Shown piece after piece: positions 28,529 to 34,658 of a DNA stretch of 46,051 bases. The DNA is from Candidatus Peregrinibacteria bacterium (lineage in GTDB: Bacteria > Patescibacteriota > Gracilibacteria > UBA1369 > LOWO2-01-FULL-3). The stretch covers positions 1-46,051 of the forward strand of contig JAUYJL010000019.1 in assembly GCA_030688025.1 (NCBI GenBank), written 5' to 3'. Below the pieces are notes generated by a model. It was not told where the DNA came from. It saw nothing but the letters and a program-made list of their open reading frames with translations, and ran no database searches. The stretch's first letter is position 1. Each line of letters starts with the position of its first letter. A program made the position numbers and the translations under genes.

Positions 28529-28647
28529 GAATTTCAAAAAACACGTACTACTGCGTCAACTTCGTTGCTCTCTCCTCGTCGTACATGTTTGTACGGCTGT
28601 GTCGCGAGCTCCTTGTTTCCTTGTATTACATTGTTTTTTTAAAATTC
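28529..28647. repeat. Fold-back element between U32 gene and aroK
   Basis: Imperfect arms 28529-28543 and 28632-28647 (one substitution, one extra A). The left arm starts 2 bases after the U32 stop; the right arm is inside the last codons of aroK. The centre is GC-richer, with the hairpin CGTACA-TGTT-TGTACG and a TCGCGA. It shares CGTACATGTT with the cores at 16664 and 43831. Probably a bidirectional terminator. Confidence 0.65.
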
Positions 28648-29192
28648 TCTGAGATCGTTTTTATAAGTTTCTTTACGTCTTTTTCTTTGTCGTCAGATCT
28701 TTTAAGGATGATGTCTGCGTTCTCTTTGTAGGTCTTGTGACGGGTTTTGTAAAGTTCTTTCATTTCTGACAGGAGTGTTTTTTGGCTTGTTAATGCTGGG
28801 CGTGTTTTGTTGGAATGTTTTTTGTTTGATTCTGTGATTTTTTTTGTGCAATTTTCTGGAGTGTCTTGCAAATAGATTACAAAGCAATTTTGGTTTATTA
28901 ATTTCGCGTTTTTTTCTTGGATTATTGCTCCGCCACCGAGAGATAAAATTGTTAATTTTTCTTTTGCGGATTTTTTTGTTTCTAATTTTTTTATCAATTT
29001 TTCTAAAACTTCACTTTCGATTTTACGAAAAGATTCCCATCCTTTTTTTTCGACTAAATCTTTTATTGTCGATTTTATTTTTTTCTCAATTTCTTGGTCT
29101 AAATCGTAAAATTTTACTCCAAGTTTCTCGGCTAGGATCTCGCCGATTTTTGTCTTGCCGCTGCCACGAAGGCCTGTTAAAGCTATTATCAT
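28626..29192 (-). CDS. aroK: Shikimate kinase
   Basis: Phosphorylates shikimate at the 3-hydroxyl with ATP. 188 residues. The P-loop is GLRGSGKTKIG; DLDQEIEKK supplies the substrate/Mg Asp region; LSLGGGAI is the shikimate-binding GGG motif; TRPAL is the lid region. The ATG overlaps the TGA of the MFS gene (ATGA). It is the last gene of the aro operon. The C-terminal codons lie in a fold-back arm. Confidence 0.95.
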   Translation of the reverse strand: MIIALTGLRGSGKTKIGEILAEKLGVKFYDLDQEIEKKIKSTIKDLVEKKGWESFRKIESEVLEKLIKKLETKKSAKEKLTILSLGGGAIIQEKNAKLINQNCFVIYLQDTPENCTKKITESNKKHSNKTRPALTSQKTLLSEMKELYKTRHKTYKENADIILKRSDDKEKDVKKLIKTISENFKKTM

Positions 29193-30331
29193 TTATGGTC
29201 GAAATATTTTACGAATGAGAGGACTACTATTACCGCTAATAATGATGTGATCCCACTTACTGCGATTGGGATATCATATCCAAATTTTTCTCCGATAGGA
29301 CCGAAGAATGCAGAAGAAATCGCTCCTCCGATTGCTGAAACAAAATTTATCATTCCGGTGTTTCCGCCGATTCTTTCCATGTTGAATATTTTTGAAACAC
29401 CATAATATAAGAAGAAGAAAAATGCTGAGTCTCCTATTTCATGAATAGTTCTAAATAAGAATGATATTTCTACGATTTTTATTGTCATCAAAATGTGACC
29501 GAATCCACTTAAAATTAATCCGAAAAGAAGTATGTTTTTTGCTTTCCAGTTTTTTAATTTTTTTGAAATGATTAAACTGCTTATTGCCATTGGTAAGATC
29601 GCAAGTCCCATGTACAAGCCAGTTTGAAGGGATGAAAGGTGCAATGTTTCTTTTAAAAATAATCCATAAGATGTTCCTTCAACTCCGAAATGAATTGCGA
29701 ATAGGGCTATTACTAGAAGAAAAACGAGTACGTCTTTTTTGAATATGTCTTTTTTGTAATGTATGATATCGAATTTTGTAGTGTCATTTTTTGGAAGAAT
29801 GAAAAATCCTAAAATTGCTAGAATTAAGAAAATTATTGCGACTACATCGAATATGATTTTATAGTCTACGTTTGCTCCGATTACGTAGCCTGTAAGCATG
29901 ATTCCAAGCGAAATAGTGAGATAATTGAAGCTTTGAAATGTTCCTAAATGTTTATTGAAATTTGCTGATTCTGCTGTTCTGTAAAAAAGGCTATCTGAAG
30001 AAGAATCATATATTTTTAAACTTACTCCTATTAATGCTGACAAGATTAATAGGAGGGGGAATGATGTCGTAGAGGCCATCCCAAAATAGAATACTGCGGC
30101 GAGGACTAGTGAAATTGATATTAAAGTTTTTGAGTTGAATCTGTCGTTTGAAAGTCCGGATGGCAAGATTGTCAGGATACTTGAGAAGGAATTTACTGAG
30201 AAGAATGTGCCTATTTCAAGTCCTGACATTCCTATTGATGCAAAGTAAATTCCCCAGAAAAAAAATAAGGAAGTTTTTAGCATTCTTACTATGCCGTTGA
30301 ATACTGAGATTGTTATGATTGATCTTGTCAT
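29189..30331 (-). CDS. Major facilitator superfamily transporter in the aro operon
   Basis: About 12 transmembrane helices in 380 residues. The start at 30331 (MTRSIITISVFNGIVRML) is chosen because its ATG overlaps the aroA TGA as ATGA; the ATG at 30385 would run 58 bases into aroA. Its own TGA overlaps the aroK ATG. A loop SGLSNDRFNSKTLI after helix 2 matches the MFS cytoplasmic signature in position. Both overlaps imply translational coupling with aroA and aroK, so a shikimate-pathway or aromatic compound is a plausible substrate. Substrate cannot be read from sequence. Confidence 0.88.
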   Translation of the reverse strand: MTRSIITISVFNGIVRMLKTSLFFFWGIYFASIGMSGLEIGTFFSVNSFSSILTILPSGLSNDRFNSKTLISISLVLAAVFYFGMASTTSFPLLLILSALIGVSLKIYDSSSDSLFYRTAESANFNKHLGTFQSFNYLTISLGIMLTGYVIGANVDYKIIFDVVAIIFLILAILGFFILPKNDTTKFDIIHYKKDIFKKDVLVFLLVIALFAIHFGVEGTSYGLFLKETLHLSSLQTGLYMGLAILPMAISSLIISKKLKNWKAKNILLFGLILSGFGHILMTIKIVEISFLFRTIHEIGDSAFFFFLYYGVSKIFNMERIGGNTGMINFVSAIGGAISSAFFGPIGEKFGYDIPIAVSGITSLLAVIVVLSFVKYFDHK

Positions 30332-31503
30332 TTTTGTAATTTTGATAAGTCTTTCCAAAATGTTGGATAACTTTTCGAAACGCATTTTGGATTTTCGATT
30401 TTTAGCTTTGGTATTTTACTCTTTAATACTCCAAATGCCATGGCAATTCTGTGATCGTTGTAAGTGTTTATGGAGATAGTGGATAGTGCTATTTTTGAAA
30501 TTAAATTTGGATTTCCGTGAATTTCTATAAAATCTTTCCCTGTTTTTACTTTTATTCCGAATTTTTTTATTTCATTTTCGAGTGCCTGTAGACGGTCTGT
30601 TTCTTTGATTCGTAAATTACCAATATTTGTTATTTTTGTGACTCCATTTGCAAACATTGCAAGGACTGAAAATGTCATAACAAGGTCTGGAGTCTCGTTC
30701 ATGTTCACATTGCTTAAAGGCTTGAGGGTGCGTGTTCCTTCAATTTCTGTGCAATTTTTGTGTTCAGTGGTTTTGCATCCCATTTTTGATAAATATTCCA
30801 AAAACTTTATGTCACCTTGAATTGAGTTTTTTGTGAGGTTTTCGAGTATTATTTTTTTGTCAGGATTCAGTGCGGCGTATTCTCCGATGTATGAAGCTGA
30901 TGATGCATCACTTTCGACTGTGAATTTTTTTAAATTTTCATTCTCAAACTCTTTTATAAGTTTTTTTGTGATTTTTACATAAGGTTTTGAGCAAAGTTTT
31001 TTTTCTATTTCTATCGTCGTTTTGTTCTTTGTAAATTTTGCAATCATTAACAATGCAGAAATATATTGGCTACTAATATCTCCACGAATTTTTATTTTTC
31101 CGCCCGTAAGTTCTGATGGATATATCTTGATTGGGGGACAATCTTTTTTCTTTCCGCCCAGGGTCTCTATTTTTGCTCCGAGCTGATTTAGCGCTGACGT
31201 AAGCTCTTTTATTGGGCGTTCGTTCATTCTTTCATCCCCAGATATCGTTATTGTTTTTTTGTTAAGTTGATTTATTTTTAATGCACAAAATGCTGTTAAA
31301 AATCTTGTTGTTGTTCCGGCATTTCCTGTGAAAATTTTTATGTTTTTATTTTTTAGTGCATTTATTAGATATCGGGTGTCATCGCACTTTGGAATATTTT
31401 TTAGTTTTATTTTTTTGTCATGAAGTGCCGCAAGGATCATTGCTCTTGCGGCAATGCTTTTTGAGCCCGGTGCTAAAATTTTTATAGTTTTTTTTGAGGA
31501 CAT
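30328..31503 (-). CDS. aroA: 3-phosphoshikimate 1-carboxyvinyltransferase (EPSP synthase)
   Basis: Adds enolpyruvate from PEP to shikimate-3-phosphate. 391 residues, on the short side of the family (about 430). Motifs: PGSKSIAARAMILAA, GNAGTTTRFLTAF, GDERMNERPI, SSQYISALLM, ESDASSASY, DLVMTFSVLAMFA, IKETDRLQA, and NDHRIAMAFGVL. It starts 3 bases after aroB and ends in TGA overlapping the MFS start. Confidence 0.96.
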   Translation of the reverse strand: MSSKKTIKILAPGSKSIAARAMILAALHDKKIKLKNIPKCDDTRYLINALKNKNIKIFTGNAGTTTRFLTAFCALKINQLNKKTITISGDERMNERPIKELTSALNQLGAKIETLGGKKKDCPPIKIYPSELTGGKIKIRGDISSQYISALLMIAKFTKNKTTIEIEKKLCSKPYVKITKKLIKEFENENLKKFTVESDASSASYIGEYAALNPDKKIILENLTKNSIQGDIKFLEYLSKMGCKTTEHKNCTEIEGTRTLKPLSNVNMNETPDLVMTFSVLAMFANGVTKITNIGNLRIKETDRLQALENEIKKFGIKVKTGKDFIEIHGNPNLISKIALSTISINTYNDHRIAMAFGVLKSKIPKLKIENPKCVSKSYPTFWKDLSKLQK

Positions 31504-31506
31504 TCT

Positions 31507-32562
31507 TTACAGTTTTGTGATTTTTTCTTTGTGTACAATTGCTTTTCCTATCTTTTTTGCGAAGATAAAATTCATAAAGTCTCCGGATCTTTTTTTGTCA
31601 CTCAAGATATCTTTTGTTTCAGGTTTTTTCATGCTTGTGATTGGTAGTCCAGCTTTTTTCAACAATGCTTTTATTCTTTCTGCTTCTTTTTCTTTCATGA
31701 TTTTTTGTTCTACTGCTAGCTTGTTTATTATTACCATGCCGATGCTTATCGCGAATCCATGTAAAAGTGTGTAATTCGACATTTTCTCTAGTGCATGCCC
31801 AAAAGTATGACCATAATTTAATAAAATTCTTTCATTAGTTAATTCTTTTTCATCTCTTTCAATTATTTTTACTTTAATTTTTATTGATCTTTCAATGATG
31901 TATTCCAGTGCCTTTGTTTCTTTTTCTAATATTTTTTCGAGATTTTTTTCTATGTATTTGAAAAGTTTTTTATCTTTTATTACTCCGTATTTTATTATTT
32001 CGGAAAGTCCGTTTACTATTTGATTTTGTGGAAGTGTTTTTAAATAATTAATGTCTACAAAGACTGCTTTTGGTTGAGAAGTAGTGCCTATTAAGTTTTT
32101 TCCTCCTTCAAGGTCTACTCCTGTTTTTCCGCCAATGGCGGAGTCTACCATTGCGAGGAGTGTTGTTGGAATTTGTATATAGGGGATTCCTCTCATGAAA
32201 ATTGAGGCTAAAAATCCACCGATATCTCCGGCAACTCCACCTCCTAAAACTATAAGAGCCGAGTCTCTGTCGAAATTTTTTGCTATCATTTCTTCTGCTA
32301 ATTCTGCAACCGTTTCAAGTGTTTTTGATTTTTCTCCTTGATTGAATGATATTATTTCGGCATTTATTTTATTTTTTTTCAAAAATTTTAGTAAAGAATC
32401 TCCGTAAATTTTTTTAGTTTTTGAATCGGTAAGAATTGCGTATTTTGTTCCGATTTTATTTTCCTTCAAAAACTCAGGAAGAGAATCTATGCAATTTTCT
32501 TTTATAAAAATCATGTATTTATCTCGTTGACGACGAGCTATTTTTACTTTGATTTTTGGCAT
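31507..32562 (-). CDS. aroB: 3-dehydroquinate synthase
   Basis: Converts DAHP to 3-dehydroquinate using NAD and a divalent metal. 351 residues. Motifs: GGGVAGDIGGFLASIFMRGI (NAD binding), DSAIGGKTGVDLEGGKNLIG, LSEIIKYGVI, and the zinc ligand region NYGHTFGHALE with a later LLHG. It lies 15 bases after aroF. aroD and aroE, needed for the next steps, are not in the window. Confidence 0.96.
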   Translation of the reverse strand: MPKIKVKIARRQRDKYMIFIKENCIDSLPEFLKENKIGTKYAILTDSKTKKIYGDSLLKFLKKNKINAEIISFNQGEKSKTLETVAELAEEMIAKNFDRDSALIVLGGGVAGDIGGFLASIFMRGIPYIQIPTTLLAMVDSAIGGKTGVDLEGGKNLIGTTSQPKAVFVDINYLKTLPQNQIVNGLSEIIKYGVIKDKKLFKYIEKNLEKILEKETKALEYIIERSIKIKVKIIERDEKELTNERILLNYGHTFGHALEKMSNYTLLHGFAISIGMVIINKLAVEQKIMKEKEAERIKALLKKAGLPITSMKKPETKDILSDKKRSGDFMNFIFAKKIGKAIVHKEKITKL

Positions 32563-32577
32563 ATGGATCAGGTTAAT

Positions 32578-33597
32578 TTATTGCATGGTTTTTCCTACAG
32601 CTTTTATTATCGGGTCTGAATTTTTTAGTAATTTTTTGAATTCTTCCGGAGTTAATTGTTGTTGTGCGTCTGATAATGCTTCTTTTGGATTTGCATGTAC
32701 TTCAATAATAACTCCATCTGTACCACATGCGATAGATGCTTTTGTCATTGGTTCGATCAATGATTTTTTTCCTGTTCCATGACTTGGATCGACAATGATT
32801 GGGAGGTGCGAAAGCTCTTTCACAAGCGGTACTGTCGCAAGCGCGAGAGTGTTTCTGGTTTCTTTTTCAAATGTTCGGATTCCTCTTTCACATAAAATTA
32901 CATTTGGATTTCCGTATACAAGAATATATTCAGCGGCAAGTAATAATTCTTCTATTGTTGCTGAAAGTCCACGTTTTAAAAGTATAGGTTTTTTGATTTT
33001 TCCAAGTTCTTTTAGTAATTGGAAATTTTGCATGTTTCGTGCGCCGACTTGAATAATGTCGCTGTATTTACAAATTTCATCTAAAAATCTTATGTCTGTT
33101 ACTTCTGTAACAACGCCCATTTTGTATTTGTCTGCAACGCGTTTTAGGATTTTTAATCCTTCTATTTCAAGTCCTTGAAAAGCGTATGGGCCTGTTCTTG
33201 GCTTGAATGCGCCTCCTCGAAGTAAATTTATTCCCATTTTTGCGAGTGGTTTTGCTACTGCTTCCATTTGTTCTTCGGATTCAACTGAGCATGGTCCTGC
33301 GATTATTGCGAATGTTTTTGGATCTCCGATCTTTACTCCGTTTACTTTGATTATTGTTGGAGTTGTTTTTACTTCTTTGCTTACGAGTTTGAATGGGCTT
33401 ACTACTCGCATTACTTTTTCTACGCCATCAAGAGCTTCCAGATGTTCAAGGCTTAAAGATCTTTCTTCGCCGATTACGTTTATTACTGCACGTTCGATCC
33501 CGAAGGAAAGAAGTGGTTCAAGTCCTTTTGCTTTTAATTCTTTAACTATTTTTTCAGCGCTTTGTTTTGATGCGCCTGCTTTCATTACTATAATCAT
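32578..33597 (-). CDS. aroF: DAHP synthase, type I-beta with N-terminal ferredoxin-like domain
   Basis: Condenses PEP and erythrose-4-phosphate, the committed step of aromatic synthesis. 339 residues. The N-terminal ferredoxin-like domain (about 1-72, MIIVMKAGASKQSAEKIV) resembles that of Thermotoga DAHP synthase, where it mediates feedback inhibition by Tyr and Phe. The barrel has AGPCSVESEEQ, RGGAFKPRTGPYAFQG, IQVGARNMQNF, LLKRGLSATIEE, CERGIRTFE and VDPSHGTGK. It is the first gene of the aro operon. A leader peptide and terminator precede it, so control acts on both transcription and (by family) enzyme activity. Confidence 0.96.
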   Translation of the reverse strand: MIIVMKAGASKQSAEKIVKELKAKGLEPLLSFGIERAVINVIGEERSLSLEHLEALDGVEKVMRVVSPFKLVSKEVKTTPTIIKVNGVKIGDPKTFAIIAGPCSVESEEQMEAVAKPLAKMGINLLRGGAFKPRTGPYAFQGLEIEGLKILKRVADKYKMGVVTEVTDIRFLDEICKYSDIIQVGARNMQNFQLLKELGKIKKPILLKRGLSATIEELLLAAEYILVYGNPNVILCERGIRTFEKETRNTLALATVPLVKELSHLPIIVDPSHGTGKKSLIEPMTKASIACGTDGVIIEVHANPKEALSDAQQQLTPEEFKKLLKNSDPIIKAVGKTMQ

Positions 33598-33619: not shown

Positions 33620-33652
33620 AAAAAAATCTCCTGCCGGGCTTAGCAGTGAGAT
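33620..33652 (-). terminator. Attenuator terminator upstream of aroF
   Basis: In the minus transcript, ATCTCACTGC (33643-33652) pairs with GCAGGAGAT (33626-33634): nine pairs, one bulged A, an 8-base loop. Seven U's (33620-33626) follow directly. It ends 23 bases before the aroF ATG, so it would stop transcription of the whole aro operon. Confidence 0.8.
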
Positions 33653-33689
33653 AATATGGCTTATGTTGCAACGTTTATCTCACGCTAAG
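33639..33689 (-). promoter_or_regulatory. Antiterminator hairpin of the aroF attenuator
   Basis: CTTAGCGTGAGATAA (33675-33689 on minus) pairs over 15 bp, with one bulged base, with the segment at 33639-33654. The 3' arm contains the whole 5' half of the terminator, so the two structures exclude each other. The 5' arm is exactly the last five codons, including the stop, of the leader peptide. The 20-base loop holds the small palindrome GTTGCAAC. Confidence 0.8.
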
Positions 33690-33773
33690 GATATAAAGTA
33701 AATAAGCATACAAGTCAGAAACCCATTGTAGTGGATTTTTGAAAACTGCTATTTTTACTTTTGATTCTTGCAT
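33675..33773 (-). CDS. Leader peptide of the aro operon, 32 aa, Tyr-rich
   Basis: ATG at 33771-33773, TAA at 33675-33677. The peptide has one Trp (codon 17), then DLYAYLLYILSVR: three Tyr codons, all TAT, within seven codons. Its final codons form the antiterminator arm. A ribosome finishing the peptide would mask that arm and let the terminator form. A ribosome stalled early in the Tyr stretch for want of Tyr-tRNA would leave it free. The frame extends upstream to 33884, but that part overlaps the tyrA start and the promoter, so the internal ATG is preferred. Ordinary function is regulatory, not structural. Confidence 0.75.
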   Translation of the reverse strand: MQESKVKIAVFKNPLQWVSDLYAYLLYILSVR

Positions 33774-33780
33774 GTACGTT

Positions 33781-33811
33781 GTAAAGTAAGACAAGTTAGA
33801 TGTTACTTTAC
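33781..33811. promoter_or_regulatory. Perfect inverted repeat in the aroF/tyrA intergenic region
   Basis: GTAAAGTAA (33781-33789) and TTACTTTAC (33803-33811) with 13 bases between. It overlaps the predicted aroF -10 box and transcription start, and lies just upstream of tyrA, so it could be an operator for both. GTAAA and TTTAC resemble TyrR half-sites, but the spacing is different. Confidence 0.55.
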
Positions 33812-33827
33812 TTTTCGATAAAGTCAA
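33800..33827 (-). promoter_or_regulatory. Predicted promoter of the aro operon
   Basis: Minus strand TTGACT (33822-33827), 16 bases, TAACAT (33800-33805). The predicted start near 33793 gives a leader of about 20 bases before the leader-peptide ATG and ~195 before aroF. The -10 is weak, so the call is tentative. Confidence 0.5.
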
Positions 33828-33833
33828 ATTTTT

Positions 33834-34658
33834 ATGAAGAAAATAGTCGGAATTATAGGTGGAAAAGGTAGGACTGGAAGCCAATTTGCAGGGTTTTTCA
33901 AGAAAATGGGGTTTGATGTTATTGTGTCTGATATCGGCACAAAACTTTCCAATAAAGATCTTATTAAAAAGGCTGACATTGTTGTTTTTAGTGTTCCATT
34001 TGAAAAAAGTGTTCAGATTATGAAGAAGGAAATTTTGGCTTGTACAAGGAAAGATCAGATAGTGATGGATTTGAGTTCGTTAAAGAAAAATCAGGTTGAG
34101 GTTATGAATAAATCTAAAGGAAATGTGATAGGAATTCATCCTTTATTCGGTCCAACCACTAATAAAAAGAAAGATTTGAATGTTGTTTTTTGTGCTGGTA
34201 GATGCGATAAAAAAGTGTTTGCACAAATGAAAAAACTTTTTGAAAAATTTGGTTTTAATGTGATAGTGATGACTCCGGAAGAACATGATAAAGCGATGGT
34301 GCTTGTTCAAGTGATTCCTCATTTGAAAATAATTTTGGCCGGTGAACTTATGAAATTTTCAGGGATTAATCCTGAAAAATTTTATGATATCGGTACGCCG
34401 ATGTACAAGGTGGAAATGAGTTTTATTGGAAGAATCTTTGCTCAAGATCCGGGGCTTTGTACTGCTATTATTGTGAACAATCCTTATTCAAAAGATTTGA
34501 TAAAGTTCTTTGGGAAAATTTCTAAAGTTTACGAAAAACTTATTTTGAAAAATGACATAAAAGGTCTTTCAAAAAGGTTTGTTGATGTGAGTAAATTTCT
34601 TGGAGATTTTCCTAAAACAGCTTTAGATGAAAGTGAAAAAATTATTAATAAAATGTAG
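33834..34658 (+). CDS. tyrA: Prephenate dehydrogenase
   Basis: Oxidatively decarboxylates prephenate to 4-hydroxyphenylpyruvate, the tyrosine branch. 274 residues. NAD-binding GIIGGKGRTGSQFAGFFKKM at the start, VVFSVPFEKS, MDLSSLKKNQ, and the family motif GIHPLFGPTT. No chorismate mutase or ACT domain is visible, so chorismate mutase must be elsewhere. It diverges from the aroF leader and precedes tatD by 3 bases. Sharing the regulatory region with aroF fits tyrosine-responsive control. Confidence 0.92.
   Translation: MKKIVGIIGGKGRTGSQFAGFFKKMGFDVIVSDIGTKLSNKDLIKKADIVVFSVPFEKSVQIMKKEILACTRKDQIVMDLSSLKKNQVEVMNKSKGNVIGIHPLFGPTTNKKKDLNVVFCAGRCDKKVFAQMKKLFEKFGFNVIVMTPEEHDKAMVLVQVIPHLKIILAGELMKFSGINPEKFYDIGTPMYKVEMSFIGRIFAQDPGLCTAIIVNNPYSKDLIKFFGKISKVYEKLILKNDIKGLSKRFVDVSKFLGDFPKTALDESEKIINKM

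Follow-up and report, generated by a model that had tools for sequence, protein, structure and literature searches.

The aro operon and its leader

The window, by which we mean the whole analysed stretch of 46,051 nucleotides from a Candidatus Peregrinibacteria genome of 1.18 Mb (98% complete), carries a gene run in the order aroF-aroB-aroA-MFS-aroK, as the initial annotation had proposed and as Pfam matches to each product bear out, and a prephenate dehydrogenase gene that diverges from it (Table 1). Between the two lies a leader with a sigma-70-like promoter, which would place the transcription start about 20 nt upstream of its ATG; most relatives have a similar site approximately 19-26 nt ahead of the leader start, and a search for a Shine-Dalgarno sequence before the leader ATG in the window found none. 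The region of this promoter (33800-33834) and the start of the prephenate dehydrogenase gene are no more than about 35 nt apart, so that this tyrosine-branch gene may share the control region.

Table 1. Features of the aro locus in the window
Feature	Position	Strand	Basis
Prephenate dehydrogenase gene, divergent from the aroF leader	33834..34658	+	
Sigma-70-like promoter: TTGACT (33827-33822), 16 nt, TAACAT (33805-33800)	33800..33827	-	sequence; resembling sites in most relatives
Start-codon region CATGCAAG, able to pair with arm A as a possible protector strand	33759..33781	-	folding
Leader peptide frame MQESKVKIAVFKNPLQWVSDLYAYLLYILSVR, then stop; 32 codons, ATG 33773-33771 to TAA 33677-33675	33675..33773	-	direct reading; gapless alignment of relatives
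Putative regulatory Tyr codons, TAT at 33710-33708, 33704-33702 and 33695-33693	33693..33710	-	direct reading; modelled stalls
Arm A, CTTAGCGTGAGATAA, antiterminator 5' arm: codons 29-32 and stop	33675..33689	-	pairs with its own arm B, -21.1 kcal/mol
Arm B, TTATCTCAC-T-GCTAAG, antiterminator 3' arm; also contains the terminator 5' arm (33652-33643)	33639..33654	-	direct reading, folding
Arm C: terminator 3' arm GCAGGAGAT (33634-33626) and T7 run (33626-33620)	33620..33634	-	-12.1 kcal/mol
aroF, DAHP synthase (PF18152 and PF00793), first controlled gene	32578..33597	-	Pfam
aroB, 3-dehydroquinate synthase	31507..32562	-	Pfam
aroA, EPSP synthase	30328..31503	-	Pfam
MFS transporter	29189..30385	-	Pfam
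aroK, shikimate kinase	28626..29192	-	Pfam

The leader frame had been recognized in the initial annotation, and so had its cluster of Tyr codons, although the three TAT codons fall within six codons rather than the seven counted there; one Phe and one Trp codon lie upstream of them. By direct reading, the end of the frame, that is, its last four sense codons and the stop, forms 15 pairs with arm B, with one bulged base, and the 5' strand of the terminator, ATCTC-a-CTGC, which forms 9 pairs with GCAGGAGAT, again with one bulge, is contained within the same arm B. The antiterminator and the terminator are mutually exclusive because both use 33652-33643. This hairpin, with its 3' arm harbouring half of a terminator that ends in seven Ts, is the one originally described; the closeness of the terminator to aroF likewise holds, the T7 run being separated from the ATG (33597-33595) by 22 bases instead of the reported 23. 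Two features of a ribosome-mediated attenuator are accordingly present, namely, an intrinsic terminator between the leader frame and the first structural gene, and a short frame, predicted to be translated, with clustered codons for an end product of the pathway.

The 191-nt leader RNA is more stable than expected (folding z = -4.1), with none of 200 shuffled sequences being equally stable. Among 48 terminator-like sites in the 46-kb window, the one in the aroF leader has a strong stem and, of the sites listed, the strongest arm pairing (-21.1 kcal/mol); its short frame, with a tail containing four aromatic residues, stops 51 nt upstream. No other listed site combines these features at equal strength.

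Conservation of the leader

The leader peptide, for which the consensus is MQESKVKIAVLKNPLQWVxDLYFYFFDLLGMR, is encoded upstream of aroF in six species of three genera without a single insertion or deletion (E 1e-20 to 1e-24). Named records with this peptide are genome bins of Candidatus Peregrinibacteria and Peribacteria, which places the window species in the candidate phyla radiation. Tyr 22 and Tyr 24 occur in all six leaders, four of which also have Phe codons in the aromatic run; Tyr alone is found only in the window species (YAYLLY) and its closest relative, G002. In each species, the frame ends in an arm (GGCATGAGATAA or a similar sequence), the complement of this arm is also present, and the T run is immediately preceded by a copy or near-copy of it. 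In all six, the start-codon region can pair with arm A at -8 to -13 kcal/mol; this protector helix is clear only in the clade of the window species and is weak or absent in many other species of the order. At the DNA level, matches to the A-rich start of the leader turned up elsewhere in genomes G000 (that of the window), G002, G017 and G050; these do not encode the peptide and were dismissed as chance.

An aroF-like DAHP synthase is encoded in 58 of the 89 genomes of the order, and by our reading of the upstream regions, about 38 species of the order have short frames that end in an aromatic run, as do about 11 species outside it in the same class, the latter comprising the cases in family f24 and one in family f30. 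In most relatives, Phe and Tyr codons are mixed within the run, frequently along with a single Trp; the frame ends include WAFFYFF, FYFYF, GFYF, WAFFYFFS, WAFFYFYFS, WAYFYFTLKA, FYFYFNPLA, WGFFYFYF and FWFYFYFSKRP. In family f24, the frames, such as MHSSNYFFYGFYFKVR, are accompanied by wholly different arms (GCGGTCGTTGTT / AATAACGTCCGC / GCGGATTTTTT). In 29 species of the order, in which the arms were located with a stop-anchored arm finder, the stop codon and the T run are 45-66 nt apart, and across these leaders arm A either includes the stop codon or begins just after it. The comparison of aroF upstream regions that had been suggested at the outset thus shows that relatives have diverged in arm sequence yet retain the mutually exclusive pairing, together with the terminator and a leader frame with aromatic codons. 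No leader could be recognised upstream of about 10 aroF copies in the order. Upstream of aroF in L055 (G018), the promoter is kept and the leader has shrunk to a remnant, ATGAGCAATAAAAGCCTCATGCAAATGCATAAGGCC, which looks like a natural deletion of the attenuator.

Could a frame and a hairpin have come together by chance, or could the terminator be a constitutive one, without any regulatory role? T runs and Phe/Tyr codons are, after all, abundant in AT-rich intergenic DNA. A strict uniform detector, however, scores 37 of the 69 regions upstream of aroF as positive, a lower bound given that it misses GTG starts and some T runs. The pheS control loci (219 kb) gave one weak match and the hisG loci (131 kb) gave none, these background rates being based on the window and the loci compared; no convincing His-rich leader was seen before hisG in 20 loci. 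The conserved frame and the cross-species pairing test described below argue against coincidence as well. Furthermore, the terminator is not the 3' end of the prephenate dehydrogenase gene because that gene is divergent, so that no transcript needs ending there. The comparative sequence data already contradict a terminator or a frame without function, and we give such explanations hardly any credence.

Co-evolution of the arms and modelled ribosome positions

Pairing of arms A and B is much stronger between partners from the same species than between arms taken from different species (-15.1 vs -9.5 kcal/mol), and the same is the case for arms B and C (-12.0 vs -7.5 kcal/mol); in neither comparison did any of 20,000 permutations match the observed value, and removal of near relatives by dereplication left the result unchanged. 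At the level of sequence comparison, this difference is direct evidence that the arms co-evolve. The exclusivity of the antiterminator and the terminator is thus supported by covariation, to which the separate GCGGTCGTTGTT/AATAACGTCCGC arms of family f24 add.

The switch between the two structures was computed by folding the RNA with a modelled ribosome, the footprint of which extends 13 nt, counted from the first base of the codon in the A site. In each of the 29 species, the predicted terminator is suppressed and the antiterminator present when the A site is on the aromatic codons, and the terminator forms when it is at the stop codon, such that the RNA switches from one to the other as the modelled ribosome leaves the aromatic run. 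In the window species, the antiterminator stays intact, with about 2 terminator pairs, when the ribosome stalls on the first or second Tyr codon, compared with about 5 at the third Tyr codon and about 9.6 at any later position, the switch being complete one codon after the third Tyr. Because longer free RNA always has more pairing options, we ran a control in which the spacer was shuffled with preservation of base composition, not dinucleotides: the number of terminator pairs rose to 7.7, from 2.1 for natural spacers, in all 29 species, and suppression was abolished. When no ribosome is placed on the RNA, folding predicts the terminator in G000-G003.

Antiterminator/terminator pairs are likewise employed by T-boxes, metabolite riboswitches and protein-binding attenuators, any of which might overlap a short frame by chance. 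Nevertheless, a search of the window region and eight other loci against Rfam 15 gave no match to an amino-acid operon leader, a T-box or a riboswitch even at permissive E-values, and no conserved RNA core was seen across the order, where only the frame and the mutual complementarity persist. We regard an RNA- or protein-based sensor of this kind as exceedingly improbable.

Proposed mechanism and the amino acid sensed

Taken together, these observations are best accommodated by a ribosome-mediated transcription attenuator that controls the aroF-aroB-aroA-MFS-aroK operon, a reading to which we assign a probability of roughly 0.9. The ribosome would trail the RNA polymerase through the leader. 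With ample charged tRNA-Tyr, it would reach the stop codon and, because this codon lies inside or just before arm A, would hide that arm, freeing arm B for arm C, so that the terminator would form and transcription would end at about 33620. With charged tRNA-Tyr scarce, the ribosome would stall at the Tyr codons, which precede the stop by 6 to 11 codons; the arm A thus exposed would take arm B, no terminator would form, and the operon would be transcribed. In untranslated RNA, the start-codon region is predicted to settle on arm A and to favour the terminator in the clade of the window species, which would be the classic protector role. Ribosome stalling, termination itself and the response to tyrosine are what we infer from this architecture. 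Weighing on the other side are the missing Shine-Dalgarno sequence, the confinement of a clear protector helix to the clade of the window species, the aroF copies that have no leader, and the Phe and Trp codons ahead of the Tyr codons.

The aromatic codons fit the product of the aro pathway and count in favour of attenuation. Judging from codon content, Phe/Tyr would be the signal sensed in the clade, and Tyr alone probably that sensed in the window species. The initial annotation proposed control by charging of Tyr-tRNA: the comparison with relatives supports attenuation as such, and the restriction to Tyr codons proves to be peculiar to the window species and G002.

A different possibility is that the peptide itself is the sensor, its conserved KVKIAVLKNPLQW segment arresting the ribosome much as TnaC does when free tyrosine, or some other ligand, is present, with no involvement of codon starvation. 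The conservation of the non-aromatic N-terminal half across three genera, beyond what a plain attenuator needs, would be readily explained by such a peptide, as would the pattern of substitutions: between distant leader pairs, changes are concentrated at third codon positions (between close pairs, they are mostly amino-acid changes), an excess that we take as supporting evidence for the frame. However, outside the clade of the window species, the N-terminal half differs and conservation is limited to the aromatic run and the spacing; codon starvation predicts precisely such aromatic runs ahead of the antiterminator; and conservation within the clade could partly reflect recent descent or the pairing between the start-codon region and arm A. 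We therefore deem a nascent-peptide sensor unlikely and favour attenuation through codon starvation.

The implications of a clade-wide attenuator are twofold. To go by the sequences, Peregrinibacteria very probably sense the supply of aminoacyl-tRNA, tuning aromatic amino acid synthesis to it, and transcription and translation in these bacteria would have to be closely coupled.

Second frames and trp leaders

Where a long gap separates the attenuator from aroF, most relatives possess within it a second small frame that ends in a Tyr motif (CAYRY, AYRY, AYQNN, AYRN, YLYRR or CLYRR; in family f24, the Tyr-rich YYKKYYYYY and NYYRRGYRY) and that often stops 25-34 nt before aroF, for example, in L046 (G025), L056 (G022), L040 (3176-3250) and L038 (3177-3245). 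No second frame is present in the window species and its two near relatives, G001 and G002. It is conceivable, if rather speculative, that many relatives have a two-tier sensor made of tandem frames, with a Phe/Tyr attenuator followed by a frame through which tyrosine controls either aroF translation or a second termination event, and that the window species and G002 narrowed the first tier to Tyr.

The same genomes seem to attenuate trp genes as well. In the genome of the window itself, L112 (G000:C20) contains, at about 1328-1440 on the plus strand and before trpE, a putative Trp leader (MNTYIVKNWWQLSTFRRRKS, then stop; WW) with a strong terminator (-13.3 kcal/mol), an analogue that counts in favour of attenuation at aroF; trp leaders with WW or WWW, terminators and complementary arms are found in G009, G011, G033 and G035. 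A second, more distant DAHP synthase gene is located about 3-5 kb from trpE in G021:C6, G086:C9, G085:C5, G035:C38, G009:C18 and G038:C8 and may encode a Trp-controlled isozyme; a partial distant DAHP synthase gene lies at the start of contig C5 of G000. In L126 (G033), a tmRNA match at 915-992 (40.9 bits, just under the gathering score of 47) suggests that a tmRNA is encoded close to trpE; a weak match to a group I intron lies nearby (488-690).

Comparison with known attenuators

Ribosome-mediated attenuation is a textbook mechanism, and what is new here is the lineage and the breadth, not the kind of mechanism. The likeness to the trp and phe attenuators is functional, their testable features having been found in the leaders described here, and we claim homology to none of them. 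As in Escherichia coli pheL (pheA) and trpL (trp operon), there are control codons, a mutually exclusive antiterminator and terminator, and an arm that a finishing ribosome would mask; the genes controlled are different, the 1:2 protector that is standard in E. coli is clear here only in the clade of the window species, and, unlike in E. coli, the stop codon of the window leader lies inside the antiterminator arm and no Rfam leader family is matched.

The closest parallel by gene is the aroR leader (Phe-Tyr-Phe) of Corynebacterium glutamicum, which is reported to subject aroF to ribosome-mediated attenuation (Neshat et al., 2014, via PMC11802643; sRNA survey, PMC4046766). As judged from these descriptions, both systems have an aromatic-codon leader peptide before a DAHP synthase gene and attenuate transcription through the ribosome; they differ in phylum and in that aroR is described as responsive to Phe, not Tyr (PMC11802643), whereas the run in the window is Tyr-only. 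Codon content is therefore no proof of specificity, since a leader with Phe-Tyr-Phe responds to Phe alone of the two. The uORFC-13-1 motif, for which attenuation has been predicted, comprises 24 sequences upstream of aroF from Acholeplasma and unknown environmental organisms (PMC8632094); going by its description, it shares with the window a short frame, a promoter and a terminator before aroF, and its frame has one or more Phe codons with no mention of a Tyr run, unlike the window leader. The uORFC-8-2 cysS leader of Rhodobacterales, again a short upstream frame with tandem control codons before a terminator, differs in sensing Cys and in controlling a tRNA synthetase (PMC8632094).

The authors of a survey published in 2010 stated that they knew of no leader-peptide system demonstrated beyond Proteobacteria and Actinobacteria, and themselves contributed a case from Firmicutes (PMC2965389). 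In the open-licence literature, we found no account of leader-peptide attenuation in Peregrinibacteria, Patescibacteria or the candidate phyla radiation, in line with the novelty that had been surmised for this kind of organism; attenuation of a DAHP synthase operon as such is already known from C. glutamicum and predicted in Acholeplasma. To our knowledge, gene regulation in bacteria of the candidate phyla radiation, nearly all of which are uncultured, is almost unstudied. The present findings would add a further major branch to the bacteria with leader-peptide attenuation and provide dozens of natural variants for a covariance model.
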